From: Affinundibacterium baiyunense
Lineage (GTDB): Bacteria; Pseudomonadota; Gammaproteobacteria; Burkholderiales; Burkholderiaceae_D
Length of the DNA stretch: 64,000 bases
Assembly (NCBI RefSeq): GCF_018139645.1
Contig: NZ_JAGSPM010000006.1
Coordinates: 62,001-126,000, forward strand
Reading direction: 5' to 3'
Positions 28,061 through 44,390 of this stretch are shown piece after piece. The position numbers and the translations under genes were made by a program. Each line of letters opens with the position of its first letter. The first letter of the stretch is position 1. The notes beneath the pieces were generated by a model that was not told the origin of the DNA, did no database searches, and saw nothing but the letters and a program-made list of their open reading frames with translations.

Positions 28061-28138
28061 GTGGTAAGACTATTTTTGCGATTTGGATTGACCAAAATCA
28101 TAAATTTGGTGAACCAAAAACACATCTGGTAAGACCAA
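28061..28138. promoter_or_regulatory. Array of four GntR-type operators upstream of the pectin TonB receptor
   Basis: Four related dyads: GTGGTAAGACTAT (28061-28073, degenerate), TTGGATTGACCAA (28083-28095), TTTGGTGAACCAAA (28105-28118, one base shorter core) and CTGGTAAGACCAA (28126-28138). Their centres are 21-22 bases apart, two helical turns. The same TTGG-N5-CCAA word occurs before the GH105 operon and the GntR gene at 44 kb. The remainder of 28139-28553 is AT-rich leader with no ORF. Confidence 0.7.
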
Positions 28139-28553
28139 TTGTTGTTTTTTGGACGCTAGATTGATAAATATTTTACCGCCGATATGTCTGTAAAAAATAA
28201 AAATATATCTATTTATTTATGGAAATAAAAAATATTTTGGAAGAATTTGCATGCAACTTAACTTGATTTAAATGATTTTGGCGATAAAAATACCAATAGA
28301 GAAAATTTGAAAAATTCTTTCAATGGATGCATTTTAATTAAATTTACTATTTTTGCATCGTTAAAAGTTCTCGCGTTGGGCTGATAAATACTTTTAGAAT
28401 CGAATCAAAGTTAAAAAAATCGAAATGTAATCGTTTTTTGTTGCCGTGTTGGTGCGTCTGATCAGCGCCCAGTGAAACTAAGGGAAACAAAAAGCCAGAT
28501 ATTTTTTAACTTCTGCTTTATAAAAACTATTCGAGACCAAAAGGACAAACATC

Positions 28554-31499
28554 ATGCGTAACAGAAACTTTAGGAAAGAATTCGGACGATTTGCCTTGAC
28601 GACGTCGGTCATGGCGATGGCGATCAGCGGTGCTTACGCGCAAGAAAGTAAGCCAAAAGTGGATGAACAACCATCGGTAGTGGTGGTGACGGGCTTACGG
28701 GCCTCATTAGAAAGTGCCTTAAATAAAAAGCGCGATGATAATGGCATCGTCGATGTGGTGAAGTCAGAAGATATGGGTAAGTTTCCGGATACAAACTTGG
28801 CCGAGTCTTTGCAACGTATTCCAGGTGTCGTGATTGATCGCGATGCCGGTGAAGGACGCAGCGTCACGGTACGTGGTTTGGGACAAGATTTCACACGTGT
28901 GCGTATCAATGGTATCGAAGGTTTGGCGACAACTGGTGGTACCGACAGTTCAGGTGGTGCAAACCGCTCGCGTGGATTTGACTTCAACGTCTTTCCATCG
29001 GAATTATTTAATTCCTTAACCGTTCGTAAAAGTGCTTCTGCTGATGTTGATGAAGGTTCTTTGGGCGCGACCGTAGATTTGCAAACCATGCGTCCGTTTG
29101 ATTTGCGTGGTTTCAATGCAAGTGTGATGGCGAAAGGGCGCTACAATGATTTGTCACAGAAAACTGATCCGCGTGTTGGCTTCTTAGTGTCGAATACGTT
29201 TGCGAACAATACTTTCGGTGCGTTGTTGTCCGGTGCGTTTTCTAAGCGCCGAGTTTTCGAAGAAGGTTTTAGTACAGTGCGTTGGGATAATGGTCCATCC
29301 TCTGGTGGTTGGTGCGCACCGATGGGTGTGACTCCAGCAAATCCAACAACGTCCACCGCAACGACTTGCGGACCTGCGGCGCAAGGCGTGTCACGATTAC
29401 CTGGAACAGCGGAAAATATTGCCGCCTATAATTTAGCAAGTTCTGCAGATAATTTTGTGCCACGATTACCGCGCTATGGCCGTTTGACCCATGATCAAGA
29501 TCGCCTCGGTTTAACCGCTTCTTTACAATACAAACCACAACGCGGTACGGTGTTTTCATTTGATATGCTGTATTCAAAACTCGAAGCAACACGTCAAGAA
29601 GATTTCTTGGAGGCGATTTCATTTAGCCGTTCTGCCAGCCAAGGTGGTAAGCCACAAACCAGCGTGGTTAAAACGGAATATGCGCCAAATGGTGCACTGC
29701 TGTACGGCATGTATAACGGTGTCGATGTGCGTGCTGAATCGCGCTTCGATGAGTTATCCACCACATTCACACAGCCTACACTCACTTTGGATCATCAATT
29801 CAGTGACACTTTCCGCATGAATGCAAGAATTGGTCGTGCTACTTCCAAGTTCGCGAATCCTGTGCAAACCACCACCACTTTAGATGCGATCAATGTTAAT
29901 GGTTACGCTTTAGATTTCCGTGGTGATGATCGTGCGCCGGTGATTACCTATCCTTTTGATGTTACCTCCGCGACTGGACCAATGACTTTGGCTAGCGTGC
30001 CACAAGTGACGTCCGGTACACAGGCAGGAACTGTGCCAAACACAACTACGAGTGAAATCCGTATTCGTCCACAAGGCGCGAATAACCGTAATGATGTTGT
30101 GCATGTCGATTTCTCTTGGGATGCGATTGAAGATAAATTGACTTTGCGTGCCGGCGCAGATGTGAAGAAATACAATTTTGATTCTTATGAGTCGCGACGT
30201 GTGAATCAAAACGACACGATTTTTGCACCGAATGCGGGAACAAATATCGCTAGCTTAACGACACAATTGACAGGTTTTGGTCGTGGTCAAAATTTGCCAG
30301 CGGGTACCCCAACTTCGTGGTTGATCCCTGACCTCAACGCAATCGCAAAAGCATATGATATTTACTGTAATTGTTTGAAGAGTGGACCTGCAGGTGGCCC
30401 TGGTGATTTCACCTTGTCTTCGATCACGAATGGTAATGCGCGTGGTAATAATCGTGCCGTCGAAGAAAATGACAAGAGTGTTTTCTTGATGGGTGATTTT
30501 AACAATACCGTAGCAGGATATCGTGTACGTGGTAACTTCGGTGCGCGCTATGTGCAAACTGAGCAGATCGCAACTGGTTATCAAGCTGCTGGTGGTGGTA
30601 CCCCAGTTACTGTACGTAACACCTACAATGATTTCTTACCATCTGCGAATATCGCGATTAATGTGAGCCGTGATTTTATCGCGCGTTTCGCTGCTGCTAA
30701 AGTGATGGCACGCCCACAGTTGGGTAACCTAAATCCAGGTGGCACGATCTCGACCACAGGCACCTTATCGGTGACCAGTGGTAATCCATTATTGCAGCCA
30801 TTCCGTGCTGATACTTTTGATTCCAATTTTGAGTGGTATTTCGGTAAAAATGCTTTCTTAGGTTTGGGTTTATTTCAGAAGAATATCAATACCTATATTC
30901 AAAGTATTCGTACCAACGTAGCATACAAAGACACAGGTTTGCCGATGTCTTTATTGCCAGCGAACTTTACTGGTGAAGAGGTGTTTCAAGTTACGGCACC
31001 GATTAATACCAAGGGCGGTAAGTTGAGTGGCTTTGAGTTGAATTATCAGCAGCCATTTACCTTCTTGCCAGCTTGGGGTAAAAACTTTGGTACTTTGTTG
31101 AACTACACCTATGTGAAATCGAAGATTGAATATGTGGTTTCACCAACCAGTAGCGCAACTATTACCGATGATTTGTTGAATCTCTCTCCTAAATCTTGGA
31201 ATGCCACTTTGTACTACGATGATGGTTCATTCAGTGCCCGCGTCTCTGCTTCTAAACGTTCTTCGTTTGTGACTCGTGTTCCAGGTCAAAATAATAATGA
31301 CGTCGAAGGTAAAAATAGCACGGTCAACGTTGATCTCTCAGTCACATACAAGATCAACAATCAATGGGAAATCAGCTTTGAAGGTTCTAACTTGACCAAC
31401 CAAGCAAATGATCAATTCATTAGCCGCTTGCGCGATAGCGTCGTGGTGAACAATGTGACAGGACGTGAATATTTACTTGGTGTTCGTTATAAATTCTAA
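28554..31499 (+). CDS. TonB-dependent receptor (TIGR01782-like), probable pectin-oligosaccharide transporter
   Basis: A 981-residue outer-membrane receptor. A signal peptide ends at AYAQ (about residue 29). The plug follows, with VVVVTGLRASLESALNKKRDDNGIVDVVKSEDMGKFPDTNLAESLQRIPGV and VRGLGQDFTRVRINGIE, the hallmark of the large Xanthomonas/Caulobacter-type carbohydrate receptors. The barrel ends YLLGVRYKF with the terminal Phe. AAGGAC precedes the ATG. The operator array upstream matches sites at the pectinase operon and regulator, so uptake of oligogalacturonides or rhamnogalacturonides is inferred. Confidence 0.88.
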   Translation: MRNRNFRKEFGRFALTTSVMAMAISGAYAQESKPKVDEQPSVVVVTGLRASLESALNKKRDDNGIVDVVKSEDMGKFPDTNLAESLQRIPGVVIDRDAGEGRSVTVRGLGQDFTRVRINGIEGLATTGGTDSSGGANRSRGFDFNVFPSELFNSLTVRKSASADVDEGSLGATVDLQTMRPFDLRGFNASVMAKGRYNDLSQKTDPRVGFLVSNTFANNTFGALLSGAFSKRRVFEEGFSTVRWDNGPSSGGWCAPMGVTPANPTTSTATTCGPAAQGVSRLPGTAENIAAYNLASSADNFVPRLPRYGRLTHDQDRLGLTASLQYKPQRGTVFSFDMLYSKLEATRQEDFLEAISFSRSASQGGKPQTSVVKTEYAPNGALLYGMYNGVDVRAESRFDELSTTFTQPTLTLDHQFSDTFRMNARIGRATSKFANPVQTTTTLDAINVNGYALDFRGDDRAPVITYPFDVTSATGPMTLASVPQVTSGTQAGTVPNTTTSEIRIRPQGANNRNDVVHVDFSWDAIEDKLTLRAGADVKKYNFDSYESRRVNQNDTIFAPNAGTNIASLTTQLTGFGRGQNLPAGTPTSWLIPDLNAIAKAYDIYCNCLKSGPAGGPGDFTLSSITNGNARGNNRAVEENDKSVFLMGDFNNTVAGYRVRGNFGARYVQTEQIATGYQAAGGGTPVTVRNTYNDFLPSANIAINVSRDFIARFAAAKVMARPQLGNLNPGGTISTTGTLSVTSGNPLLQPFRADTFDSNFEWYFGKNAFLGLGLFQKNINTYIQSIRTNVAYKDTGLPMSLLPANFTGEEVFQVTAPINTKGGKLSGFELNYQQPFTFLPAWGKNFGTLLNYTYVKSKIEYVVSPTSSATITDDLLNLSPKSWNATLYYDDGSFSARVSASKRSSFVTRVPGQNNNDVEGKNSTVNVDLSVTYKINNQWEISFEGSNLTNQANDQFISRLRDSVVVNNVTGREYLLGVRYKF

Positions 31500-31563
31500 A
31501 ATTTCATCCTCCCTAGGACGAAAGCGATGTTCGGTTTGATTGATCATCGTGTGCAGTAGACGA

Positions 31564-31610
31564 TAGCGCAGCTTAACAAGACTCCCCCGTTAAGTTGCGC
31601 TATTTTTTTT
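31564..31610 (+). terminator. Intrinsic terminator after the TonB receptor
   Basis: A 14-bp stem with a single G-T pair (TAGCGCAGCTTAAC with GTTAAGTTGCGCTA), a loop of 11 bases, then eight T. It separates the receptor from the pectate lyase gene. Confidence 0.9.
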
Positions 31611-31669
31611 GGTAAGAAAAGCGGCGGCGCTGGTTGTTAGCAGCATCGCTGAAAATTGATGGAATGCGA

Positions 31670-33046
31670 ATGATGATGCGTCAAATGGTTGGCATTTTTT
31701 TTAATCGACAAGGACTTGGTTTGCGACTTGATCGGTTTATTTTTCTGGCGCTACTCGCCATCCTCATTAATTTGTTCATTGTAGTAATTGGCAAGGCAAA
31801 TGAAACGGATGTATTGTATAAAAACTATGCGTTTCCAAATGGGTTTGCCTGGCTCGATGAAGTAAAAGGAGGGCAAGGCGGCAAGATTATTCGTGTGACG
31901 AATTTACGCAAAGAAGGCACAGGTTCCTTACGCGCAGCGCTAGAAACCAAGGGGGCGAGAACCATTGTCTTCGAAGTTGCTGGTGTGATCGATTTAGAGC
32001 GCAGCGTATTGCAAGTCAATGAAGGTTTCGTGACGATTGCGGGGCAAACTGCGCCCTCGCCAGGGATTACCTTGATTCGCGGTGGAATCAATATTCGCGC
32101 TTCGCATGTGATTATTCAGCATCTTCGTATCCGCACCGGTGCCGACGGGCAGACCAAAGCAAGTGGCTGGGAAGTTGATGGTCTGAATATCTCCGCGGCG
32201 CACCATGTAATTATTGATCACTGTAGTATGAGTTGGGCCATCGATGAAAACATGTCGGTATCTGGTCCTCGGTTTAAAGGGAATACACCAGAGGAATGGC
32301 GTAATGCAACCAGTCATCACATTTTGTTTTCAAATAATCTTGCAGCAGAAGGTTTAGCTGAATCGACACACGCAAAGGGAGAACATTCAAAAGGAAGCTT
32401 AGTTCATGACAATGTGACGAATGTGATTTTTTATCGCAATATTTGGGCACATAACGTAGAACGTAATCCTCTGTTAAAAGGCGGCGCCAGCGCGACCATT
32501 GCGAATAACTTGATTTACAACCCAAGGTCAAAAGCGATTCATTACAACTTGATGGCATTGGAATGGGGCGATCATCCATATCAAACAGGTAAGCTGAATG
32601 TGGTTGCGAATGTGTTGCGAGGTGGAATGTCAACCAAGAAAGCTTTGCCATTGATGATGTTGGGTGGGGATGGTGATCTCGCTTACTTTGCGAAAGATAA
32701 TATCGCGGTCGATCAGTTTGGTAATCAACTCCCGCTATTCGGGCGCTATGGTGAGACGCGAGCCCAGCTACTTTTGCAATCAACGCCTATCGATTGGCCG
32801 CAAGGACTTAAGGTGCTCGATGCAAGAATGGTCGAGTCAGAATTGCTACGTTATGCAGGTGCGCGTCCTTGGGATAGAGATAAGGATGACACGCGCGTGA
32901 TTTATTACATCGCAGAAGGGCGCGGCACTATCATCAATGATGAGCGTGAGGTCAGTACTTATCCTCAGCAGAAAGAGACCCAATTACGTTTTTCTGAAGA
33001 AGATTGGGATACACGGAAATGGTTGCCTAGATTGAATCGCAAGTGA
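31670..33046 (+). CDS. Pectate lyase family protein (parallel beta-helix)
   Basis: About 458 residues. An N-terminal hydrophobic helix (RFIFLALLAILINLFIVVIG) acts as signal or anchor. The mature part has GGKIIRVTNLRKEGTGSLRAALETKGARTIVFEVAGVIDL, TIAGQTAPSPGITLIRGG and HHVIIDHCSMSWAIDENMSV, the beta-helix and calcium/catalytic segments of PL1-type pectate lyases, which cleave polygalacturonate by beta-elimination. Several starts are possible (31664, 31670, 31673); GGA lies 6 bases before 31670. It has no operator of its own that I can see. It lies between the TonB receptor and the accessory segment. Confidence 0.82.
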   Translation: MMMRQMVGIFFNRQGLGLRLDRFIFLALLAILINLFIVVIGKANETDVLYKNYAFPNGFAWLDEVKGGQGGKIIRVTNLRKEGTGSLRAALETKGARTIVFEVAGVIDLERSVLQVNEGFVTIAGQTAPSPGITLIRGGINIRASHVIIQHLRIRTGADGQTKASGWEVDGLNISAAHHVIIDHCSMSWAIDENMSVSGPRFKGNTPEEWRNATSHHILFSNNLAAEGLAESTHAKGEHSKGSLVHDNVTNVIFYRNIWAHNVERNPLLKGGASATIANNLIYNPRSKAIHYNLMALEWGDHPYQTGKLNVVANVLRGGMSTKKALPLMMLGGDGDLAYFAKDNIAVDQFGNQLPLFGRYGETRAQLLLQSTPIDWPQGLKVLDARMVESELLRYAGARPWDRDKDDTRVIYYIAEGRGTIINDEREVSTYPQQKETQLRFSEEDWDTRKWLPRLNRK

Positions 33047-33326
33047 AGACAACGCGACGATAGATTTGGGGGGGAACTTAGACCACGCTTCCATTCTGCG
33101 GCTAGTGACGGTGCATTTTTCGGCTTGAGTTTTTTTAACTGGTTAAATAAAATAGAATTTAATAAAGTAATATATTTGTGTAATTAGTGTTTATTTTGAA
33201 TACATAAGGTAATTCCCTCGGCTCTGATGGGGGGGGCTTACCAAGGTTTAATCTACTCGACGGTCAGTTTGAAACTTTAGTCTCAATCAAAATAAGGGAA
33301 AGTTCAATACAGAAGGAAGGTGACTC
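33047..33326. other. AT-rich spacer with two G-runs
   Basis: No gene is recognisable between the pectate lyase and 33327. Two homopolymeric runs, seven G at 33068-33074 and eight G at 33229-33236, stand out in AT-rich surroundings. This is the left edge of the accessory segment. Confidence 0.4.
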
Positions 33327-33521
33327 ATGGAACGTTTTGTCAGCATTTCAGTGAGATATTCCGAAAATCAGCGCAGCAAAGAGAGTGTAAGGTGGTTGAC
33401 GGCATTTGATGGAGGATCGTGCCATGTTTGTCTGAGTGTACCGCCGAAATATTCGGCATCAAATGAAGATTGGGCTGTAGGAGGATTACTGTGTACTAGA
33501 GGCTTTGAGGCGCCCAAGTAA
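33327..33521 (+). CDS. Unrecognised small protein
   Basis: A 64-residue ORF with a very good ribosome-binding site (GAAGGAAGGTGAC just before the ATG). It has no signal peptide, is Ser/Arg-rich and contains two Cys-x-x-Cys-like cysteines (CHVC). I recognise no family. It might be a real small gene of the accessory segment, or a chance or remnant ORF. The quality of the ribosome site is the main support. Confidence 0.3.
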   Translation: MERFVSISVRYSENQRSKESVRWLTAFDGGSCHVCLSVPPKYSASNEDWAVGGLLCTRGFEAPK

Positions 33522-33925
33522 TAAACCACTGGCTTTGTCGGAGGAAATTTAATTTATTCAACTTCAACAAAAAAACTTTCCCCTCAGTGACGTAAAAATG
33601 TGACTTGACGAGAGTGCTTCAATGAACGAGCTGGCAGGTAATCGTTTTACTAAATTGGCAGTCCGAAGCTGCAACACGCTCTAGCTGCCGTTTACCTAAA
33701 TTGTTTCAATGTTCCAATCGGGGGCGATCATTACTTGACCAGATTTTGGTATTTTGAAAATCGTAGTGTGGCGAAGACAAGCTCGATAAGAAGGCAAAAC
33801 ATTTCTCTTGAATAGCGCATGTTACCCAGAAAATGTTTTTTTGTGTTGGTGAGTGGATTGTTTCGCCGAATTTTTCTAAAACTAGATAGTACGATTCATA
33901 TATACGTTAATCATGTGAGACTGCG
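33522..33925. other. Non-coding stretch before the secreted unknown pair
   Basis: About 400 bases of AT-rich sequence without a supported ORF. I see no clear repeat or operator. The promoter of the two secreted-protein genes should lie here. Confidence 0.3.
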
Positions 33926-35125
33926 ATGCGATACATAAAATTTTTCAGAACTTCATGGTTATTAACGGTTTTTCTTTTGATGTCTAATTTAGCCTTTGCC
34001 GAATTTACCTATTTGGTTAGCATGGAGGGTAAAAAAGGAGAGCGTGTTGCCTATTATGTTGGATCTAACGTGCTTTCTAGAACGCCTGTCAATATGAAGG
34101 ATTTGTTTGCATCGACATACGTTAGTCAAATTACCATGTACATTGTCTATGAAGCTGAGCCACAGCCAGAATGGTCAATCATGCGTTTACAATTCGTGTG
34201 TCATCATAAGAAAGACCATCTGGGTAAAGTCTTTGCTAATGTTCCTAATGCGACTGACCCTGTGCAAGTACGAGTGGCCGATAGTAGTGTAAATTTTATT
34301 CGTCGAACACTTAACGGTGAGCCGATTCCTGAAACAGAGTTTTCTTCAATTGGCAGTCATGTAATGTTGCAAACGCAAAAAGTTGCGTGTCTGGAGCATG
34401 AACAAAATCAAGTTTCTAAAGCAGTGGTGAATGCTATTAAGAACAATCATTTTAATAAAGAAGACTTTAATCAGAAACTCAAGTTGCTTGGCTTTCAAGC
34501 ACCAATTCATGTGGTTGATGTTGATGCTACAGCGCCCGCACTTACTACGTTTACATGGAAGGTGTTATGGGAGGGTAGCGTTAAGCCAGTTAGCCCAGCA
34601 GATCGAGTGCTGACAAAAGCAGAGATTGATGAAAGAGCAAAGCAATTAGGTTCAATTAGCGAAAAGATGAATACTTTGAAGTCGCGAATTGAAGAGGAAT
34701 ACTTGCCTGAAATTGAAAAAAAACATATCGACGATGCATTTGCCAAATATGCTTTAAAAGTCCGTGGTTCAAGAGAGTTAAGTAATACAGAATCTTCTGC
34801 CATCATGATTTGGCAAGGTCAAACTGAAGAACTACTTATTAAGCGAATGGGAGCAGGTTTGTTTAGCGAAGCTGAGCAATTGCGTTTTAGGCGATACAGT
34901 CAAAGTTTTGATAACCGTGCTTTTTTGCAAAATAGATCAACAGGACAAGTGATTGAGAGTGGTGTTTTGAGAAGTTGCGATGTGGATTTTGTTTTAGCTA
35001 AGGATAAAAAACACACTTTCAGGGTGGCAGATGTTCGTATCAGTAGCTCGACAAGTGATATTCGTGCCGGTGGTAATGCGTGTCAAGATTTAATTAAGAC
35101 TCCACAAAATGCTTCTGCTAAGTAA
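33926..35125 (+). CDS. Unrecognised secreted protein (399 aa)
   Basis: A signal peptide (FRTSWLLTVFLLMSNLAFA, cut after about residue 25) starts a 399-residue protein I cannot place in a family. The middle (about 225-280) is Lys/Glu-rich and predicted helical, with coiled-coil character (RAKQLGSISEKMNTLKSRIEEEYLPEIEKKHIDDAFAKYALK). The C-terminal part contains paired cysteines (SCDVDF, NACQDL). Codon use is more AT-rich than in the neighbouring his or pet genes, suggesting acquisition. It is followed after 53 bases by a second secreted unknown with its own good ribosome site, so the two are probably one operon. Confidence 0.7.
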   Translation: MRYIKFFRTSWLLTVFLLMSNLAFAEFTYLVSMEGKKGERVAYYVGSNVLSRTPVNMKDLFASTYVSQITMYIVYEAEPQPEWSIMRLQFVCHHKKDHLGKVFANVPNATDPVQVRVADSSVNFIRRTLNGEPIPETEFSSIGSHVMLQTQKVACLEHEQNQVSKAVVNAIKNNHFNKEDFNQKLKLLGFQAPIHVVDVDATAPALTTFTWKVLWEGSVKPVSPADRVLTKAEIDERAKQLGSISEKMNTLKSRIEEEYLPEIEKKHIDDAFAKYALKVRGSRELSNTESSAIMIWQGQTEELLIKRMGAGLFSEAEQLRFRRYSQSFDNRAFLQNRSTGQVIESGVLRSCDVDFVLAKDKKHTFRVADVRISSSTSDIRAGGNACQDLIKTPQNASAK

Positions 35126-35178
35126 GCAAGTATTCAAAATGTAGACAATCAAAGGAAGAAAAAGGAGAGGAAATTAAA

Positions 35179-35874
35179 ATGTACAAAAAAATTTCACCAC
35201 AAATTTTGTTGTTGGCTGCAATAAACTTATGTCTACCAAATGCAAGTTCTGCTGCATGGGCAAATCCACAAGAAGCTAATGTAGGGCTGCCAAATATATT
35301 GTTTGGAGCATCTGGAGCACCAACAAGCAAGATGAAGTACAAAGGAATGTATGATATGCCAGTGCCTTCGATGCCAGGCTTGTCTGATCCAGAGTTAATT
35401 TATGAGGAGCGTGATGACAGTGTTTGGGTGTTATATGACGGGAAGAAGGTTGAAATAGGACCGCGCTGCATGGCAGCATATGTGGAGCTTGATTCGGGAG
35501 GCATGTTCTATAACTGGGGAATAGGAAAGGATGCTATGTCCAGTATAGTGTACAGGGGAGGCAGCATTCCTGAAAATAAAGGAGAGATGAAAAAGGTCGA
35601 GGTTACCATGCGTGTGAATGGTGAAACGGGAAAGTTTCCATTTTTCCATATAGGAAACGCATTGATCATACCTGTAAAAATGGAGGCAACTTTAAAAGCT
35701 GTCGAAGATAAAAGTAAAGTAGAACTTCTTTTAGATGGCAAATCGGTATTAACTTTAAATTTTGAGGGTACTCTTAAGGCTAAAGCTGCGCTCTATAAAT
35801 GTATGGGAGTACGAGAAACTTTAAAGAATAGGGCAAATTATATGTGTGATGAGTCCATAAGAGCCTGCAAATAG
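35179..35874 (+). CDS. Unrecognised secreted protein (231 aa)
   Basis: A signal peptide (KISPQILLLAAINLCLPNASSAAWA) precedes about 205 mature residues of mostly beta character with four cysteines (RCMAAY, KCMGV, MCDES, ACK), likely two disulfides. GGAGAGG lies before the ATG. I recognise no family. It is downstream of another secreted unknown on the same strand and directly upstream of a YD/RHS-repeat remnant, which raises the possibility that the pair belonged to an RHS-type effector locus. That link is context only. Confidence 0.7.
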   Translation: MYKKISPQILLLAAINLCLPNASSAAWANPQEANVGLPNILFGASGAPTSKMKYKGMYDMPVPSMPGLSDPELIYEERDDSVWVLYDGKKVEIGPRCMAAYVELDSGGMFYNWGIGKDAMSSIVYRGGSIPENKGEMKKVEVTMRVNGETGKFPFFHIGNALIIPVKMEATLKAVEDKSKVELLLDGKSVLTLNFEGTLKAKAALYKCMGVRETLKNRANYMCDESIRACK

Positions 35875-35881
35875 GGGGTAA

Positions 35882-36046
35882 GGACAAATAAATCTACGAC
35901 GTCCCAACAGGGTAACTCGCATCACGGATCAACCAGGCATCGTCGCCTACAATTACGACACACCCAACCTCAACAACCTGATCCCCTTCAACAACAGAGC
36001 AAAAGGGGCGAGGAAGCATCTCATGTCCCGAGAGCTCAATACCTGA
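35882..36046 (+). pseudogene. RHS/YD-repeat protein remnant
   Basis: An open frame without a start codon. Its translation contains RVTRITDQPGIVAYNYD, a recognisable YD (tyrosine-aspartate) repeat of RHS proteins, then PNLNNLIPF and about 20 further residues before a TGA. RHS proteins are large repeat-cage polymorphic toxins. Only one repeat remains, with higher GC than its flanks and no long ORF on either side. It is best read as a fragment left by recombination or deletion. Confidence 0.55.
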
Positions 36047-36157
36047 TTATGCTAAAAACATACATTTTCTATACATTTCAAATAAATATTTCTGAAGTCT
36101 CAAAAGTATGTTGACATGTATAGTACAAATTCTTTTTTACTATTTTATGGGTGGGTG

Positions 36158-37417
36158 ATGTCTACTAAGCTTTCAAGGTATGTCTTATTTTTTTTCTCAT
36201 TGGCAATGCTATTGTCAACGTGTAACAGCTTCGCAATGAAAACAAGCGTGTCGTTAGATGGAAATGTTGAGACCAAAACGCAATCTGCAGATGTGCACGC
36301 CCAAATTGATGCCATTGTCGAGCAGCGAATCAAAGAGGGAGGGATGGTCGGAGTTGGTGGCGCCATTATCGTGAACAAGAAAGTAGTCTGGATGAAGGGA
36401 TATGGCTTCGCCGACAAGGAACACGCGAGAGCATTCACTCCCGATACAATTATGAACATCGGATCGATCAGCAAGACTTTCACTGGTGTAGCGCTGATGC
36501 GAGCGGTACAAGAGGGAAAAGTCTCTCTTGATGAAAACATCAATTCTTATCTGCCTTTCAAAGTTATTAATCCCCATCATCCGAGCGAGCCCATTACGTT
36601 AAGGCAACTGGCTACCCACACCTCGGGAATCACAGATAGACAGTCGGCCTACGAACGCGTGTATCACTTCGGAGGCGACTCTCCGGAAGCCCTTGGCGAT
36701 TTCTTGCAGAACTACTTCGCGCGCAACGGCAAATACTATTCGAACGACAACTTCCTAAAGGCCAAACCGGGGACGTCCCGCGAATACTCGAACATTGGAG
36801 CTGCGCTGGCTGGCTACATCGTCGAGGTTGTTGTCGGCGAGAAGCTCAATACCTATACCAAGCGTCACATCTTTGCCCCTCTGCGAATGAAAAACTCTGG
36901 CTGGTTCTTATCTGAAATATCGCCTGCGAAGCACGCACGACTGTACGTCTCGCAAGGCCTCCGCATTCCTATTCCACAGTACGGGATAACGACATATCCA
37001 GAAGGTGGAGTCCGCACCTCAGTGTCCGACCTCGCCAAGTTCTTTATCGCGTTGCTAAATGATGGCAAATATGAAGGGACGCGAATGCTTGAGCAGAAGT
37101 CAGTCGACGAGATGCTCAGGTTCCAATACACCAGTGCAAATAAGCCTGATAATGTCAACATACAAGGGGAAGACTCGGTCAATTCTGGAATTTTCTGGGC
37201 CACGAAGCACGACACCACTAGGATCGGACATAACGGATCCGATCCCGGAGTGAGAACAATCATGCTGGCGGATCCAAACAAGGAAATCGGCGTGATCCTG
37301 TTTACAAACACTTCTATGCATGATGAAGAATCTGGACACTACTACAATATCTTCGAGACACTTTGGAAGCATGCAGTGCAAATGAAGATTCAAGCAGATA
37401 AAGCAGCCAAACAGTAA
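36158..37417 (+). CDS. Secreted serine hydrolase, beta-lactamase/class C-like family
   Basis: A 419-residue protein of the PF00144 fold. A signal peptide (MSTKLSRYVLFFFSLAMLLSTCNSFA) is followed by the catalytic SxxK (NIGSISKTF), YxN (REYSNIGAAL) and the HxG-type third motif (GHNGSDPG). Family members are beta-lactamases, DD-peptidases, esterases or D-aminopeptidases, and the substrate cannot be told here. The ATG at 36158 starts the signal peptide; an upstream ATG at 36116 would add 14 residues. Base composition is more GC-rich than the two genes before it, in keeping with a mosaic accessory segment. Confidence 0.85.
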   Translation: MSTKLSRYVLFFFSLAMLLSTCNSFAMKTSVSLDGNVETKTQSADVHAQIDAIVEQRIKEGGMVGVGGAIIVNKKVVWMKGYGFADKEHARAFTPDTIMNIGSISKTFTGVALMRAVQEGKVSLDENINSYLPFKVINPHHPSEPITLRQLATHTSGITDRQSAYERVYHFGGDSPEALGDFLQNYFARNGKYYSNDNFLKAKPGTSREYSNIGAALAGYIVEVVVGEKLNTYTKRHIFAPLRMKNSGWFLSEISPAKHARLYVSQGLRIPIPQYGITTYPEGGVRTSVSDLAKFFIALLNDGKYEGTRMLEQKSVDEMLRFQYTSANKPDNVNIQGEDSVNSGIFWATKHDTTRIGHNGSDPGVRTIMLADPNKEIGVILFTNTSMHDEESGHYYNIFETLWKHAVQMKIQADKAAKQ

Positions 37418-37843
37418 TGTTTAGGTAGCAACGGGGGCTGTTTCAATGTCCCAGTGATGAGCTCGCGGTATTGTGGGGAGTGCAGTTAAGTGTCTCAATA
37501 TGGCCGTTGCGCGGCTGGGGCAGGCGCTACACTCCCTATTTTTCCATTATCCAATTGCAACAAGCATGGAGTCACCCATAAGTCCCCCGGTAGTCGAGTA
37601 GTCGAACCAAATACACGCGAACTACCGCGATAAAAAATTCTCTATAACGCCATCACAAATGCAACTCAAAATGCCTTTAAGCCTTTTGCTTTGTCTTGCT
37701 GTTGCGTGAATCGCACCAGTCACCAATGTGGTTCTGGAGAAAAATGCTGTCGCTGTTTTCGCCTGAGTAGCGCCGCTACTCCATAAGCATCACAGTACCC
37801 CTTTGCGTCCAATTTGAAGAACAGAATCGTTCAGCTATGCTAG
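37418..37843. other. Degraded non-coding stretch in the accessory segment
   Basis: There is no intact gene. On the reverse strand one frame (roughly 37480-37830) reads through long open blocks broken by a few in-frame stops, which suggests a decayed gene whose family I could not identify. No transposase or terminal inverted repeats could be made out. Confidence 0.35.
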
Positions 37844-38233
37844 CGACTACATTGGCATGATTTACCTGGGAAAAATTTCGCACGTCTCTGTGCCATCATC
37901 TCAGGAGTCACTAGCACGGTCGCCCATGCCGGCGGCCCACCAATTCTGGTGTATTTGATGGCGAGGAACTTGGCAAAGCAAACTTTTGTAGCCACCACCG
38001 CGGTATTTTTTACAGTGCTTAATACGGGTAAATTATTGCCCTATGCCGCGTTGGGATTTTTCACGCTAGATAGTTGGAAGATTGCCGCAAGTTTGGCGAT
38101 TTTTGCCCCCACGGGTGTATGGCTGGGTTTGTATGTATTGAAGATCATTCCAGAGCGCTATTTCTATTCGCTGGCAACTAGCTTATTGGGTATTTCAGGA
38201 ATCAAGTTACTCTACGATGCGCTTCAATTGTGA
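37844..38233 (+). pseudogene. TSUP (TauE/SafE) family transporter, 5' truncated remnant
   Basis: The frame contains ISGVTSTVAHAGGPPILVYLMARNLAKQTFVATTAVFFTVLNTGKLLPYAALG, the conserved start of the second half of TSUP anion/sulfite exporters, and then runs to a normal C-terminus (YFYSLATSLLGISGIKLLYDAL). About 130 N-terminal residues, including the first four or so helices, are missing. Upstream the frame ends at a stop at 37841. The deletion end coincides with the right edge of the accessory segment, so the insertion or recombination probably destroyed this gene. Confidence 0.7.
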
Positions 38234-38314
38234 GGCATATTTTGCGAGTCATTGTTTGAACAATGACTCGCATGATTTAGATCTAAATTAGTTTCAATTT
38301 AGCACCAATCCAGC

Positions 38315-40162
38315 TTAGGTCGAGATCGTTTCTGAATAAGATTTTCCATTGATTGTGATGTTGCGCAATTGCAGATTCTGCACATGATGTAAGAACCACG
38401 GTGCTTTATCATTGCGCACTGTGCCAAAGTCGCAATTGCTGATGCTGACATTTTGTATCGGGAAAATCGCTTGTTTCGTTTTGCCGTTATAGCTGGAAGC
38501 GACCGGTCCTAGCAACACAAATGCTTGATAACTCGAGTAATTTCCTCCGCCGATATTGACCGTGCCAACTTTAATATCAGAGACGTGGATGTCTGAAATC
38601 ACTGGTGGACGAATACGCACGCTGTCATCCGCTGGCGCGTAATCACAATCAATAGTGATAACCGCGCCTGCTGTTGACGGAACCGACTGCGGTGCTATCA
38701 ATGAATCTGGCAAAGGTTTATAAAACGCGGGCATGGTTTTGACGCCATTCGGAATACTCACATCGCGTACATAGAAGTGACGTAGAAAACCGCCGCGATT
38801 CATATTGGTCTTCATTCGGATTGCTGTATTTAAAGGATCATGATCCCAATTCATATTGCGGAAATCCAAATGTTGCGCATAGATATACTCGATACCTGCC
38901 GCCATCTCACTACCTAAAGTGACTGCACCGTGACCACTATTCATTACGCAGTGTTGCACGACAATGTTACGCGTTGGACCAAATTGCGTGTCGCGGTTTT
39001 TACCAGATTTGATGGCGATACAATCATCACCAGTGTTAAAGGTGCAGTTTTCGATCAAAACAGTGTCGCAAGATTCGGGATCAAAACCATCACTGTTGGG
39101 TCCCATGCTATCCATATTAACTTTGTTGATATGCACTTTGCGGCACTTGACAGGATGATGCAACCAGAACGGTGCGGCTTGTATTTTATAGCCTTGTAAT
39201 AGCACGTTATGACAGCCGATCAATTCAATCATGCTCGGACGTAAATAATGTCCAATACCAAATATTCTGCGCGCGGTTGGAATGCCGAGTTCGGACAATA
39301 CCGGTAGAAAGCGTGAATCAGTGCGCCATTTATCGCCTATGCCTTGCACCAATTTTTTAGCATCTTCGTTTAAATTCGGTGCGAGCTGATCTAAATTTTC
39401 TGGGTTATTTGCATTTACATTTACTTCTGAAAATTGAATCGGCTTTTTAGGATTCTTGCGACCTTTCCAATCCCACCAATTGCCTGAACCATCTTCAAAT
39501 GGCGTACCGCCTTGGCCATCGAAAATACTGCTCCAATCTTCGCCTGTAATCGCAATATTTTTTTCGTTGTAGGCATAGATCATCGGCGAGTAATTGAGGC
39601 AATCATTGCCTTGCCAACGAGAGACCACGAGCTTGCCGTTTTTACCGCAATCGATATCGCCATATTTGGCGTAGTCAGCGGGATTAGCACTAAAGAAGAC
39701 GTGTGCATTCGCAGCTAGATGTAGATGAACGTTTGAGCGCAAACGTATTGGCCCTGCACAGTACCAATTCCCTGCTGGGATCACAACGCGCCCACCGCCG
39801 GCTTTATTGCAGGCGATGATTGCTTGGTTAATCGCTTGATAGCAATCGGCTGAGCCAGTCTGAGGCGTTGGAATAATGCCCTCGATTGCACCTTCGGTAT
39901 CTGATGCAACTTGGCCGTTGATATTTTGCAGTTCGCACGTCTTTGCGCCAAATTGTGTAATCAGAAAATCGCGTTTGGCAAATTTAATCGGCTTAGTAAA
40001 CTGCGCAATAATTTGTTCCGCATGTTTCCACGGATTGTGTTTTACTGGATTGCTCGTCGCTTGGCTCAGGGTAGGGAATGTCGATAAGCCGAATAGGCTA
40101 GCAGCGCTAGAGTAGCGCAGTAATGAACGACGCTGTTGGTTGATTATTTGATGGGTTGGCAT
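38315..40162 (-). CDS. Polygalacturonase-like glycoside hydrolase family 28 protein
   Basis: A 615-residue parallel beta-helix enzyme. An N-terminal twin-arginine-like signal (QQRRSLLRYSSAASLFGLS) suggests Tat export. The GH28 catalytic region is clear: FNTGDDCIAIKSGKN with the paired Asp, then MNSGHGAVTLGSEMAAGI with the catalytic His, and TAIRMKTN (equivalent of the RIK motif). GH28 enzymes hydrolyse polygalacturonate or rhamnogalacturonan. The long N-terminal region is normal for bacterial exo-type enzymes. It is the third gene of a minus-strand operon with the DUF4861 and GH105 genes. Confidence 0.9.
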   Translation of the reverse strand: MPTHQIINQQRRSLLRYSSAASLFGLSTFPTLSQATSNPVKHNPWKHAEQIIAQFTKPIKFAKRDFLITQFGAKTCELQNINGQVASDTEGAIEGIIPTPQTGSADCYQAINQAIIACNKAGGGRVVIPAGNWYCAGPIRLRSNVHLHLAANAHVFFSANPADYAKYGDIDCGKNGKLVVSRWQGNDCLNYSPMIYAYNEKNIAITGEDWSSIFDGQGGTPFEDGSGNWWDWKGRKNPKKPIQFSEVNVNANNPENLDQLAPNLNEDAKKLVQGIGDKWRTDSRFLPVLSELGIPTARRIFGIGHYLRPSMIELIGCHNVLLQGYKIQAAPFWLHHPVKCRKVHINKVNMDSMGPNSDGFDPESCDTVLIENCTFNTGDDCIAIKSGKNRDTQFGPTRNIVVQHCVMNSGHGAVTLGSEMAAGIEYIYAQHLDFRNMNWDHDPLNTAIRMKTNMNRGGFLRHFYVRDVSIPNGVKTMPAFYKPLPDSLIAPQSVPSTAGAVITIDCDYAPADDSVRIRPPVISDIHVSDIKVGTVNIGGGNYSSYQAFVLLGPVASSYNGKTKQAIFPIQNVSISNCDFGTVRNDKAPWFLHHVQNLQLRNITINGKSYSETIST

Positions 40163-40232
40163 GATGTGCTCGATGATTTAGGTCGAAAATTGATATACGT
40201 GTTTAGATAATCAAATTGAAATCTGATTAGTA

Positions 40233-41519
40233 TTAAGGCGTTTGATTGCCGATCGAACTTAAACTTACTTTGACCGGATCACGATAGCGCGCCGCCATTT
40301 TGTTTATGTAATCCAACCAAGCTTCTTGTGTTTTTACATCGCCCCAGCGTTCCCAAATCGCACCTGCGTAGTAAGTCATTTTTTGACCGCTGGTGACAGG
40401 TTTCAAGATCAGATGATTGAGACTATCTTCGCTATAAGCATCCGCACCTGGAAGAATAATTGCGGTGCCAATCGCACCGTTGCCCGATTGTTCTATCCAT
40501 TGTGATAAAGAAGATGATGCAAAATCTTTTTCGACGTGAATCTTGGCTTGTTGACCTTTGTCGGATGGTGTTTTGTTGAGACCAACAGCGGCAACAAGTT
40601 GAGGATTGGCAGTTGATGTATTGAATTGGAAGGTACTCTCAATTTTGTCGAGATAATGGCCGGCATCAATCGTGAAGCGTTTGGTTTCAGTAACGGCAAC
40701 GCCTGCCGCATCCCAGCTTGGGTAGCTCAGTTCAAAGATGGTGCGGATTGGACCATTCGCGAGTATTTTCCACTGTGAATAATTGATACTGGTATGTAAT
40801 TGTTTGCCGTCCCAAATGCCAGTTCCACCGCATCCGCGAGAGCGACCGACGTTATACATATCGAGACCTTCGCCTTCGTCCTTATGATAATGATCATGTC
40901 CTTTGTTATACCAGCGATCGACAATCGGATAGGGCACGCGCTTAAACCAAATATCGATACCGCTGGTGACTAATACTTCCTTGGTCACGCCAGCAGGTGC
41001 GGGCGCTGCTAATGCAGGGCCATAGGTGCGGTGCGCAATCTTATCGGTTTCCCAAGCAAAGTCATCGAGCCGCTCTGGTATCTGTCTTGCGAAGGTTTTT
41101 GTCTCAAATACTGGCGCGACTGTATCGATTTTCTCTATCGTAAAGCTTGCTTGTTTTTCACCTGCCGCAAAGTGATGTTGGAAGATCAGTTCACCATAAG
41201 CGATACCAATTCCCTGCGGGTCTTTGGCTTGTGGCGCAATATTGGTGACCTGATGTGGCAATACTTTGCCGTGTTGATCTTTGATTGCAATTTTCTGTAT
41301 CAACGCACCTGGCAAATATTGATTTACTTGCGTCCATGGAATCGTAATGGTTTCTGAAGGACGCGCTTCGGCTAGCTGATGAGTTACCGTTACTTTGAAT
41401 TTATCTTGAGCTAAACCAATTGCTGGCATAAGGCTCAATCCCAGCGCGACTGCTTTGAGCTTGAATCGCAAGTTGCGCTGACCGGGTTGCGTCATCTTGT
41501 GGTTGTTAAATTGAAGCAT
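40233..41519 (-). CDS. DUF4861 family secreted protein of the pectin operon
   Basis: A 428-residue protein with a signal peptide (FKLKAVALGLSLMPAIGLAQ). The body resembles the DUF4861 family found in pectin and rhamnogalacturonan utilisation loci: ITIPWTQVNQYLPGA, YGELIFQHHFAAGE, HRTYGPALAAPA, WYNKGHDHYHKDEGEGLDMYNVGRSRGCGGTGIWDGKQLHTSINY, and YYAGAIWERWGD. The His/Asp-rich GHDHYHKDEGEGLD block looks like a metal or catalytic site. The activity of this family is not settled to my knowledge. It lies 70 bases upstream of GH28 and 75 downstream of GH105. Confidence 0.75.
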   Translation of the reverse strand: MLQFNNHKMTQPGQRNLRFKLKAVALGLSLMPAIGLAQDKFKVTVTHQLAEARPSETITIPWTQVNQYLPGALIQKIAIKDQHGKVLPHQVTNIAPQAKDPQGIGIAYGELIFQHHFAAGEKQASFTIEKIDTVAPVFETKTFARQIPERLDDFAWETDKIAHRTYGPALAAPAPAGVTKEVLVTSGIDIWFKRVPYPIVDRWYNKGHDHYHKDEGEGLDMYNVGRSRGCGGTGIWDGKQLHTSINYSQWKILANGPIRTIFELSYPSWDAAGVAVTETKRFTIDAGHYLDKIESTFQFNTSTANPQLVAAVGLNKTPSDKGQQAKIHVEKDFASSSLSQWIEQSGNGAIGTAIILPGADAYSEDSLNHLILKPVTSGQKMTYYAGAIWERWGDVKTQEAWLDYINKMAARYRDPVKVSLSSIGNQTP

Positions 41520-41594
41520 GTCTCATTCCTATCACTGAATTGTTTAGGTTTAGGCAGTACTGGTATCGTTTGGATTCTGCGCTTGCTCTTTACA

Positions 41595-43001
41595 TTAGTG
41601 ATGCTCGCGATAATCGGTTTTTGCGGCACCCGTCGGCACGTAGTGATAAGTTCTGACCTTATGTTCAATGTTAAACGCTGGATTCTTTAGCATTTGTATG
41701 ACTTCGGCTCCAGCCATCAACATCGGTCCATAGCCATGCAAAGCTTCGACGCTGGTCGGACGATTGTAGTAATACGCGTGATCGCTAGCGAAGGTGGTGC
41801 CCACACAGATTCCTTCAATCTCGCCTTTGTCAGTGATACGTGTTGATAAGCCTATCCAACCTGCTTGCGCGATAGAGCCCCAAGTACTTGGACTAATCCA
41901 ACCTTGATTGACCGCATGCGCAATCGCATACACAAACATTGCGCTCGCTGAAGTTTCGAGATAGGAATCATTGCGGTCTAGCATTTGATGCCATAAACCT
42001 TTGCCAGATTGAAGCTCGGCAATTCCCTTCAAGCTGGCACGTAATTGATTCAATACTTTCGGATAACCAGGATGATTTTTCGGTAATACGTCGAGCAGAT
42101 CTGACATCGCCAATACTGCCCAGCCATTCGCACGCGCCCAGTAGAAGCGTGGTGCATCGGGATTGTTCTCATTCCAACCATGTGTGTATAAACCGCGTTG
42201 CGCATTAAACATATACGCGGACATTTGCAGCACATTGTTTACCGCATCGTCGAAGTAGGCATTGTCACCAGTGAGTCGACCTAGTTCGGCAAGTGCCGGA
42301 ATGCTCATATACATATCATCTGCCCATAAGGAAACCGCCTGTGGACGTTTGCGCGCGAGTGTGCCATCTGCTAAACGGAACTGCTGTTTTGATACCCAGT
42401 TACCGCAGATGTCGATCATGTGTTTCAAATCTGGCCCAACTTTGGCCAAGCGTGCGCGAATCAGTGCGGCACACATCGAGCCACTATCGTCTAGCGAACG
42501 CGGGTCTAGAAAACGAGAAAAACTATTTGCGCGTTCCAAGTGGAATTGCGCTTCTTGCGCCTTGAAATAAGGCATGGTGTCAACGAAGAAGCGGAAATGA
42601 CGCTCGGTCATATCGGTGAAGCTTTTGTCATCCGTTGCGGCGCGTGCTTTCAGTAAGCCAGAATGCACCACACCCATCTCATACACCATGATGCCGTAGT
42701 CACCTTTGCTAGGTTCAAAGATCGCTTCTTTAATTGGCTTTTTAAAATCGCTAATCGGTGCGCCGGTCGATTTATTAATTACTCGTGTTGGCGTAGTTGA
42801 TTCGAGATAGTTCCGAATTTTATGTAAGGAATCGGTAATTTCTTTAATCACCGGTTTTTTATACGGGATCGGATAAGTTCCTTCACCCTTGTCTGCCAAA
42901 TTAGGATTATCTGGGTTTCTATATTGCTTATCGGCCAATGCAATATCGCTCAACAAGCACGAGCAAAGTAAGGAGCAGAGCAAGGTAGTCTGAAGTTTCA
43001 T
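41595..43001 (-). CDS. GH105 unsaturated (rhamno)galacturonyl hydrolase
   Basis: A 468-residue secreted protein with a signal peptide (LLCSLLCSCLLSDIALA). The (alpha/alpha)6-barrel motifs of GH105 (YteR/YesR) are visible: SLWADDMYMSIPALAELGRLTGD with the catalytic Asp, FYWARANGWAVLAMSDLLDVLP, GLWHQMLDRNDSYLETSASAMFVYAI, and SVEALHGYGPMLMAGAEVI. These enzymes remove the unsaturated uronic acid left by lyases, complementing the pectate lyase. It is the first gene of the minus-strand operon and has three operator-like sites within 120 bases of its ATG. Confidence 0.9.
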   Translation of the reverse strand: MKLQTTLLCSLLCSCLLSDIALADKQYRNPDNPNLADKGEGTYPIPYKKPVIKEITDSLHKIRNYLESTTPTRVINKSTGAPISDFKKPIKEAIFEPSKGDYGIMVYEMGVVHSGLLKARAATDDKSFTDMTERHFRFFVDTMPYFKAQEAQFHLERANSFSRFLDPRSLDDSGSMCAALIRARLAKVGPDLKHMIDICGNWVSKQQFRLADGTLARKRPQAVSLWADDMYMSIPALAELGRLTGDNAYFDDAVNNVLQMSAYMFNAQRGLYTHGWNENNPDAPRFYWARANGWAVLAMSDLLDVLPKNHPGYPKVLNQLRASLKGIAELQSGKGLWHQMLDRNDSYLETSASAMFVYAIAHAVNQGWISPSTWGSIAQAGWIGLSTRITDKGEIEGICVGTTFASDHAYYYNRPTSVEALHGYGPMLMAGAEVIQMLKNPAFNIEHKVRTYHYVPTGAAKTDYREHH

Positions 43002-43063
43002 AGCGGTCTCTTTATGATTTTGAGTTGATCGTGATCGAATACTTTAATTGCAATAGCTTAAAT

Positions 43064-43117
43064 TTGGTCAGACCATTTTAATGTGGTAAGACCAAATATG
43101 CAATGTGGACTAGCCGA
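43064..43117. promoter_or_regulatory. GntR-type operators upstream of the GH105-DUF4861-GH28 operon
   Basis: TTGGTCAGACCAT (43064-43076) and GTGGTAAGACCAA (43083-43095) are close copies of the TTGG-N5-CCAA operator. A degenerate third copy is at 43105-43117. They lie 63-116 bases before the GH105 ATG on the minus strand. The rest of 43118-43280 shows no ORF. Confidence 0.7.
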
Positions 43118-43280
43118 ATGTCGTATTTTTATTAGAAAATAATGATAACTAAGGATATGACTTTATTACATTCACATCCTTACACATCAAGTTTGTGCAG
43201 CGTTTAGTGAGACGAGTTATCTTATTTATGTCAATTCACGTCAACATGGGTAGACATAAAATTATATAAAGCTACATAAG

Positions 43281-43309
43281 CAAACGACCAGCTAGTAGCT
43301 GGTCGTTTG
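43281..43309. other. Perfect 13-bp stem-loop beyond the gntR gene
   Basis: CAAACGACCAGCT (43281-43293) and AGCTGGTCGTTTG (43297-43309) with a 3-base loop. It lies just downstream of the gntR stop on the minus strand and probably ends that transcript, although a long T-run is lacking. Confidence 0.6.
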
Positions 43310-43341
43310 TTGAGCGAAGTCTATGATGAATACGCGAAAAT

Positions 43342-44040
43342 TTATCCGCGTGAAAAAGTCCGGCTGACTCGGTCGAGATGGGCGCGCATCGCCTGTTTTG
43401 CGCCATTAGCATCATGCGCTGCGATCGCTTCTAAGATCGCACGATGATCAAGCAGTGTTTGTTTGCGTAACTCTTCTGTTTGAAAATGTTCTTTTAACTT
43501 ATGCCACAAGCTACCACGTTGATTCCATAAATATTCGATCACCCCAACTAAAGCACTATTGCCGGTGGCACGTGCAATCGCCAGATGGAAGTTGCGATCT
43601 GCCATTTCATTTTCATTGCGATTGTCGTGATGACGTTCCATCTCTAACACCGCTTTGAGGATGGCATCAATCGCAGAATCGGTCGCATTCTTTGCCGCGA
43701 TGGCAGCAACTTCAGATTCAATTAAGCGACGTGCTGACAACACTTCAAACGGGCCAGGACCACCTTCCGGTACATCTTTATCTACTTTCGCTTGCTCGCT
43801 GACATAGACGCCAGAGCCGCCGCGTACTTCGACAATCCCACCTAGTTCTAAGGCAATTAAAGCTTCTCGCAATGAGGCACGACTGACATTGAGCTTGCTA
43901 GCTAAATCGCGTTCAGAAGGAAGGCGCTCTCCAGCCGCGATATTTTCGTCCTTGATCAGTTGTTGGATGCGGTTAGAGACAACGCGATATAAGCGTGGTT
44001 CTGGCGCGATATTTTCTAATGCAGCAGCAACTTTTTTCAT
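43342..44040 (-). CDS. GntR family regulator, FCD (FadR) subfamily, probable pectin/galacturonate repressor
   Basis: A 232-residue regulator. The winged helix-turn-helix is RLPSERDLASKLNVSRASLREALIALELGGIVEVRGGSGVYV. The C-terminal FCD domain (about 90-225) has RRLIESEVAAIAAKNA, NFHLAIARATGNSALVGVIEYLW and LLDHRAILEAIAAHDANGAKQAMRAHLDR, which carry its metal-binding His and Asp residues. Related UxuR/ExuR/PdhR-type regulators bind TGGT-N3-ACCA sequences and respond to sugar acids. Such sites occur before this gene, the GH105 operon and the TonB receptor, so it probably controls all three. An autoregulatory site lies 74-86 bases before its ATG. Confidence 0.9.
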   Translation of the reverse strand: MKKVAAALENIAPEPRLYRVVSNRIQQLIKDENIAAGERLPSERDLASKLNVSRASLREALIALELGGIVEVRGGSGVYVSEQAKVDKDVPEGGPGPFEVLSARRLIESEVAAIAAKNATDSAIDAILKAVLEMERHHDNRNENEMADRNFHLAIARATGNSALVGVIEYLWNQRGSLWHKLKEHFQTEELRKQTLLDHRAILEAIAAHDANGAKQAMRAHLDRVSRTFSRG

Positions 44041-44113
44041 TGAGTTTCGGTGTGGTGAAGAACGTGAAGAAATGGGTGATAAATGAAGTCAAGCAGACAA
44101 GGTTTATTCTAAA

Positions 44114-44126
44114 TTGGTCTGTCCAA
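44114..44126. promoter_or_regulatory. GntR-type operator upstream of gntR (autoregulation)
   Basis: TTGGTCTGTCCAA (extended ATTGGTCTGTCCAAT) is a perfect TTGG-N5-CCAA dyad. It is 74-86 bases before the gntR start and 265 bases before the divergent SEDS-like gene. The remaining spacer (44127-44390) has no recognisable gene. Confidence 0.7.
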
Positions 44127-44390
44127 TGCCGCAAGCGGTGAATGTATTGATTGCATTGTATAAGCCTGAGCGGCTGTTGTTATTGCACATGCTATCAAGT
44201 TCTAAGGTAAAAGATAAATTTAATTAATAAACGCAACTTCTAGTGTCGTGGAATCAATATAATCAGCTCGTCAAATTCATTAGCTTTTTTTGCTTTATCT
44301 AGACGAATGCATCGATAGCTCAAACCTAAATACACAGAACTGAGAATTAAGTGTGATGTCTAAAGACGTGTAAGTCTGAAGCAACGAATA

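Follow-up and report, generated by a model that had tools for sequence, protein, structure and literature searches.

A palindrome, nested in putative promoters at several genes, shared by pectin uptake genes, pectin depolymerization genes and a FadR-subfamily GntR regulator in Affinundibacterium baiyunense

The window considered here is a stretch of 64,000 nucleotides of Affinundibacterium baiyunense (contig NZ_JAGSPM010000006.1, positions 62,001 to 126,000 of the forward strand; here C83:62001-126000) in a genome of 4.27 Mb and 91 contigs that is 99.45% complete. It holds a pectin locus that consists of the regulator gene gntR1, an operon of the order GH105-DUF4861-GH28, and a gene for a TonB-dependent receptor followed by a pectate-lyase-like gene. 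Dyads of the form TGG-N5-CCA were found upstream of gntR1, of the operon and of the receptor gene; this one shared site appears to serve the freshwater bacterium as a common switch for pectin uptake and pectin breakdown. An earlier note on the same DNA had proposed a 13-bp operator, TTGG-N5-CCAA, by which one FadR-subfamily GntR protein coordinates both functions.

Genes and dyads of the pectin locus

The gene gntR1 (43342-44040, minus strand) encodes a GntR/FCD protein of 232 amino acids, which is assigned to the FadR (FCD) subfamily of the GntR family by its matches to PF00392 (65.3 bits, cut-off 27) and PF07729 (90 bits, cut-off 24.3). The operon on the same strand comprises a GH88/GH105-family hydrolase of the unsaturated uronyl hydrolase type (41595-43001; PF07470, 265.6 bits), a DUF4861/BT_3233-family polysaccharide-utilization protein (40233-41519; PF16153, 267.8 bits; NF058564, 323 with a cut-off of 320) and a GH28-family enzyme of the polygalacturonase/galacturonidase type (38315-40162; PF00295, 63.6 bits; NF049892, 213.5, below the cut-off of 800). 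The TonB-dependent receptor (28554-31499, plus strand; TIGR01782, 656.8 bits with a cut-off of 310; PF00593 and PF07715) probably takes up pectin oligosaccharides, judging from its context. It is followed on the same strand by the pectate-lyase-like gene (31634-33046), whose true start is uncertain and whose product falls short of the cut-offs of PF00544 (21.7 bits, cut-off 24) and of NF041900 PelZ (351, cut-off 840); this gene adjoins the receptor gene also in the related loci L006-L009, L011 and L012.

The dyads were scored using a matrix of 31 distinct sites, all taken from loci not named Undibacterium. The five top positions of the 64 kb were 43065, 43084, 28127, 44115 and 28084 (23.4, 19.7, 18.4, 16.4 and 16.0 bits), the sixth reaching 11.9 bits. 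These five are the dyads that the earlier note had placed before the receptor gene (two), the GH105 operon (two) and gntR (one). Those of the operon lie on the minus strand and are termed O3, TGGTCTGACCA (43065-43075; plus-strand reading TGGTCAGACCA), and O2, TGGTCTTACCA (43084-43094; plus-strand reading TGGTAAGACCA), with 19 bp from one to the other and O2 within a 17-bp promoter spacer. A degenerate upstream dyad, O1, CGGCTAGTCCA (43106-43116, minus strand; 7.7 bits), lies 22 bp from O2, and GGCTAGTCC recurs in relatives. The gntR1-promoter dyad TGGACAGACCA (44115-44125, minus strand; plus-strand reading TGGTCTGTCCA), by which gntR1 would regulate itself, recurs as an identical 11-mer before gntR in each of the 8 close loci L005-L012.

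The receptor gene was found in 8 of the 39 genus genomes searched, and seven of the upstream regions were readable, the eighth being cut by a contig end; the counts that follow include the window's own. Upstream of the receptor the plus strand carries TGGATTGACCA (28084-28094), an 11-mer shared by 6 of the 7 regions, and TGGTAAGACCA (28127-28137), which corresponds to TGGTARGRCCA in 7 of 7. A 10-bp dyad, TGGTGAACCA (28107-28116), with the spacer shorter by one base, is present in 6 of 7, and a weak dyad, TGGTAAGACTA (28062-28072; 7.3 bits), in 3 of 7. This dyad footprint is kept within otherwise strongly diverged DNA. Two further conserved blocks were noticed in the upstream regions of relatives, namely ATTGTTGTTTTTT at 28138-28150, directly after the last receptor dyad, and TTCTCGCGTTG ... 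TAGAATC ... TCAAAG at about 28367-28412, the latter in most aligned relatives.

Single scores are weaker evidence, since the highest maxima in 30 shuffled windows scored with a first matrix were 15.6-20.3 bits; with the same matrix 8 sites of the window reached 10 bits, while shuffled windows had 2.4 such sites on average. The claim of the earlier note that the dyad occurs at only three kinds of place was too narrow, as open reading frames also contain exact matches, to TTGG-N5-CCAA at 50650 and 60547 and to TGGT-N3-ACCA at 31135 and 62901. The earlier note did not mention the promoter hexamers that flank the dyads, the weaker dyad at 43106-43116 or the 10-bp one at 28107-28116.

Nor is the locus split, as the earlier note had described it: the receptor-lyase arm and the GH105 arm converge, and the three intervening genes (33926-37417; two without a Pfam match, one of the beta-lactamase family) are all missing between the arms in five of the six relatives that show both GH28 and lyase genes (L006-L009, L011, L012), the sixth having, of the three, the beta-lactamase-family gene alone. 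Because of this absence in five relatives the three genes are suggested to be an insertion between the arms. They are partly present in L005 and L007.

Geometry of the promoter-nested array

On the minus strand the gntR1 dyad is flanked by a putative -35 element, TTGCGG (44129-44134), 3 bp upstream and by a putative -10 element, TAGAAT (44106-44111), 3 bp downstream. The corresponding elements of the GH105 operon are TTGCAT (43098-43103) and TAAAAT (43075-43080), the latter having one base in common with O3. The hexamers are separated by 17 bp with the TGG-N5-CCA dyad exactly central, and they probably represent real promoters; the gntR1 promoter (44106-44134) combines this frame with a single dyad and the GH105 promoter (43065-43116) with three. 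The regulatory unit of this putative regulon is therefore described here as a promoter-nested and often triple array, TTGCNN-N3-dyad-N3-TARAAT, which is larger than the isolated 13-bp site of the earlier note.

Orthologous gntR loci of Undibacterium, Massilia, Duganella and relatives served for the comparative analysis; 116 were confirmed, and the best 80 of them, together 1.59 Mb, were used. These loci were picked around gntR and are mutually related, so that their counts are not independent, and the scoring matrix was partly built from the same loci. Pairs of TGG-N5-CCA peak at spacings of 19 (51 pairs), 22 (53 pairs) and 41 bp (31 pairs), and no other spacing between 11 and 60 exceeds 4 pairs. 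Two control patterns gave no pairs at 19, 22 or 41 and no more than 9 anywhere. The peaks arise because the promoters carry the triple dyad array, typically TGGCTAGTCCA-N11-TGGTCTGACCA-N8-TGGCCTGACCA in the promoter listing, in which TTGC lies between the first and the second dyad and TARAAT between the second and the third. The combination TTGC-N5-dyad-N3-TARAAT occurred 82 times at that pair of gaps; among 144 gap pairs no other gave more than 4 occurrences.

The promoter alignment was reduced from 138 rows to 78 non-redundant promoters at 80% identity; columns dictated by the search pattern itself are not informative there. With a dyad position called filled if at least 5 of its 6 half-site bases matched, the O1 (upstream) offset was filled in 49 and the O3 (downstream) offset in 34 of the 78, and the columns beyond the array were nearly without information. 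One Undibacterium group (L041, L067, L069, L084) has TTGATG in place of TTGCNN as the putative -35 element of gntR at unchanged spacing. The promoter of the TonB receptor has, by its aligned upstream regions, a different layout from those of gntR and GH105; a TTGC/TARAAT promoter was considered for the receptor array and dismissed, since the elements are not kept in relatives.

Occurrence in the genome and the family

The genome was searched using the pattern TTG-N6-dyad-N3-TARAAT, which was found at three exact places and at one place with a mismatch (reversed control: 0). All three exact places precede regulon genes, namely the GH105 operon, gntR1 and a second regulator gene, gntR2, on contig C73. 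The earlier note had set a regulon against hits scattered at random; the promoter-anchored pattern is not scattered, and the bare dyad is. TGGTN3ACCA alone matched 133 places against 99 for its reversed control and was rejected as a definition of the regulon for being too loose. With sharper dyad patterns 34 distinct genome places were obtained, 7 of which lie in the regulon, and 20 of the other 27 were fetched. Among these 20, only C73:287231 (near recX and a succinyl-CoA-ligase-like gene) and C91:97101 (before a GGDEF-EAL gene) were both intergenic and of at least 15 bits; they show no visible link to pectin and were not added, and a double-dyad match at C26:538258 departs from the consensus.

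The second locus on C73 (L085, L086; C73:352000-390000) carries on one strand gntR2, a second TonB receptor, a GDSL esterase, a GH28-pectinesterase fusion and a GH28 enzyme, and on the opposite strand a galactarate dehydratase together with a dehydrogenase that is Udh-like, likely a uronate dehydrogenase by its epimerase/dehydratase domain and its position. The galactarate dehydratase fragment scores 727.5 against a whole-protein cut-off of 730.85, and the DNA upstream holds one dyad, TGGTCAGACCA (C73:371563), whose end is 86 bp ahead of the ATG. The earlier note had suggested a check for further hits before uronate genes such as uxaC, kduI and kdgK; neither UxaC (PF02614) nor KduI was found in the genome (kdgK was not searched), and an operator dyad precedes the galactarate dehydratase gene instead. 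Because KduI and UxaC were not found, the visible catabolic link of the putative regulon is the oxidative route.

A stricter form of the pattern was applied to 145 genomes of the family and matched 32 places in 16 genomes (reversed control: 0). Thirty of these places precede genes for gntR (13), GH105 (11), GDSL esterase (4) or TonB receptor (2), and for the remaining two a frame that encodes a pectate-lyase domain follows at 590 and 832 bp. The frames directly adjoining these two places are of no recognized type in one case and PEP-CTERM in the other. The regulator (E-value cut-off: 1e-50) was found in 25 of the 145 genomes, one by a partial match, and these include all 16 with the pattern; the hypergeometric probability of this co-occurrence, 2.6e-15, ignores relatedness and assumes that both scans drew on the same 145 genomes, of which the second listing names 45. 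Outside the family the pattern was found in 0 of 290 genomes among 300 of the order, and the reversed control in none of the 300.

Target genes of strong sites (at least 15 bits) in the 80 loci were assigned by homology, requiring the start of a regulon-type gene at most 450 bp downstream, which was given for 205 of 218 sites. Counted by locus, with one site possibly counting twice, the targets were gntR (55), galactarate dehydratase (36), GH105 (20), TonB receptor (20), GDSL esterase (19), BD-FAE esterase (6), pectate lyase/pectinesterase (6) and GH43 (1), and one or more pectin-query genes were present in 74 of the 80 loci. Target clusters from simple open reading frame calling were discarded, as spurious and antisense frames ran across known promoters and put 49 of the 218 strong sites into frames. 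Three loci (L014, L017, L021) have the gene order GH105-DUF4861-receptor with the receptor third, which by gene order is an independent link of the receptor to the putative regulon.

The regulator, its proposed action and alternative explanations

The genome encodes four FCD proteins, two of which are of the GntR1 type. GntR2 on C73 is 72% identical to GntR1 (tblastn), shares its SRASLRE helix, and is encoded downstream of a promoter-nested triple array; the operator precedes the regulator's own gene in the window, in the close loci and at gntR2. UxuR and ExuR were the best NCBIfam matches for both proteins, with GntR1 falling far short of the equivalog cut-offs (157 bits against 442 for UxuR and 145.7 against 396 for ExuR). 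GntR1 carries D148-x3-H152, H199 and H221, which we take to be the metal ligands of the FCD pocket (Asp plus three His). D-x3-H was found in 80 of 81 proteins and the third-His pattern in 76 of 81; the second-His pattern, which was too strict, matched 38 of 81. The regulator tree has two clades (support 100/99), 47 rows clustering with GntR1 and 35 with the C73 paralog, and members of both bear the operator.

Taken together, these data are best explained by a uronate-responsive repressor regulon of FadR type, probably common to two paralogs, to which we assign a probability of about 0.86. Without pectin, dimers of GntR1 and probably GntR2 would occupy the TGG-N5-CCA dyads. The loading of RNA polymerase would thereby be blocked at both gntR genes and at the GH105-DUF4861-GH28 operon, where the main dyad fills the 17-bp TTGC/TARAAT spacer, often with helper dyads 22 bp upstream and 19 bp downstream of it, and a repressing action of the receptor array is likewise presumed. 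A uronate-derived ligand would enter the FCD pocket and release GntR, which would open both arms of the locus, receptor-lyase and GH105-DUF4861-GH28, together with the second pectin-enzyme locus and the galactarate-dehydratase operon; the gntR genes would repress themselves. A bolder version of this model takes the O1/-35/O2/-10/O3 block (about 55 bp) as an indivisible cassette, placed family-wide before different genes (the two regulators, GH105, TonB receptors, esterases, lyases) and read cooperatively by the two GntR paralogs as a graded switch, with one paralog reporting polymer breakdown and the other oxidative galacturonate catabolism; we regard it as tentative and rather doubtful.

That a FadR-subfamily GntR protein ties pectin uptake to depolymerization, as the earlier note had claimed, is strongly supported by the footprints, the co-occurrence of regulator and motif and the whole-genome pattern search. 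Its assumption of one regulator does not hold up in the same way, given the paralog with the same helix and operator. Operator sharing by two paralogs appears about as likely as a single master: both may bind the same operators, perhaps as heterodimers, so that the window genes would be governed as much by GntR2 as by GntR1, and such cross-regulation, probably as heterodimers, is reported for the ExuR/UxuR paralogs in the available text of PMC9369180. Against a need for two regulators, 17 of the 25 regulator-bearing family genomes have a single copy (E-value cut-off: 1e-50), and 10 of these 17 carry the strict pattern, which argues that one copy suffices there. An unlikely alternative is that GntR acts as an activator or dual regulator at some promoters, above all at the TonB receptor, where the array (28062-28137) lies 260-330 bp before the sole same-strand TARAAT (28395) and the separate conserved block TTCTCGCGTTG ... 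TAGAATC is found near 28395; at the gntR and GH105 promoters the dyad covers the spacer exactly, a position suited to blocking RNA polymerase. Less likely still, the receptor sites would belong to another FCD regulator of the LldR, PdhR or GlcC type. The genome does encode two further FCD proteins, and FadR-subfamily regulators are described in the part of PMC4494728 available as having TKGT/ACMA boxes in common, GT and AC being 2-3 nt apart; however, the matrix of pectin-locus promoters from other genera scores the receptor sites at 18.4 and 16.0 bits, and the receptor gene is joined to GH105-DUF4861 in the three loci named above. It is very improbable that the sites are chance hits of a loose palindrome in intergenic DNA rich in AT: TTGG-N5-CCAA with one mismatch matched 59 times in the window against 29.7 expected and single shuffled windows reached 20.3 bits, but the comparative results and the reversed-pattern controls (0 in 145 and in 300 genomes) speak against it.

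Several observations weigh against the repressor regulon as proposed. The receptor array lacks the TTGC/TARAAT frame, and no same-strand TARAAT other than that at 28395 exists in its region. Nine of the 25 regulator-bearing genomes lack the strict pattern, part of which may be explained by TTGA replacing TTGC in some loci. In the fetched flanks of six among the 80 gntR loci, namely L010 and the Massilia loci L046, L048, L053, L054 and L062, no pectin-query gene was seen, and in the five Massilia loci strong sites precede no recognized target. Strong dyads also occur inside unrelated genes, as 10 of the 20 fetched non-regulon places reach at least 12 bits and 8 of these 10 lie in open frames. 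A Massilia clade of this GntR (L046, L054, L062) was further noticed for its next frame, a 274-amino-acid type without a Pfam match (14053-14877 in L046), with strong sites about 235-330 bp ahead of it and no pectin-query gene nearby; this may be a different target.

Among known systems, the hexuronate regulators UxuR and ExuR of Gammaproteobacteria resemble the present case in forming a paralogous pair with autorepression and hexuronate-linked targets (available text of PMC9369180). The dyad of ExuR has 3 nt between GT and AC as here, whereas the published UxuR motif has 2 nt (PMC4494728, as far as available), a spacing that differs from all sites of the window except the 10-bp site at 28107. 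The targets also differ, being here pectin uptake, depolymerization and galactarate dehydratase, and Ashwell-pathway control (uxaC), a trait of the UxuR/ExuR equivalogs, finds no support in this genome, in which no UxaC was found. GguR, which governs the galactarate/glucarate and hexuronate regulon of Halomonas, likewise belongs to the GntR family and controls an oxidative route that includes Udh; the accessible portion of PMC5507952 names no polysaccharide enzymes or TonB receptors for it, a distinction by description.

The present sites fit the palindromic TKGT/ACMA type of the FadR subfamily with 2-3 nt between GT and AC, a consensus for which extra weaker boxes nearby are also described (Suvorova, Korostelev and Gelfand 2015; PMC4494728, available text). 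The extra half-sites described there lie 7-12 nt from the center, whereas here whole dyads stand at a fixed 19 or 22 bp and are locked to the hexamers; a text search of PMC4494728 found no word beginning with "promoter" or "tandem". NanR (PDB 6on4), the closest solved structure by sequence, matches residues 15-229 at 77.5 bits and shares the GntR-FCD architecture, but it binds direct repeats according to the available text of PMC4494728 and the sites here are palindromic.

The proposed regulon is hence considered a well-supported addition to the known FadR-type regulons, with an unusually rigid and promoter-nested layout. No earlier description of it was found in a literature search that covered titles and abstract starts of part of the matches, with subscription papers and regulon databases outside its range. 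The 29-bp pattern may provide a rule, transferable among Undibacterium, Massilia, Duganella and relatives, by which pectin and galacturonate genes can be found; it predicts a coupling of outer-membrane uptake to depolymerization through a cytosolic sugar-acid repressor, and its nested geometry would be a simple case of promoter occlusion by several operators. Beside the pectin locus, and with no strong operator, lie two adjacent genes (46897-51590, minus strand) that by their translations are similar to each other and TonB-receptor-like. GntR1 itself is 100% identical (rounded) to the GntR protein of Undibacterium macrobrachii KCTC 23916.

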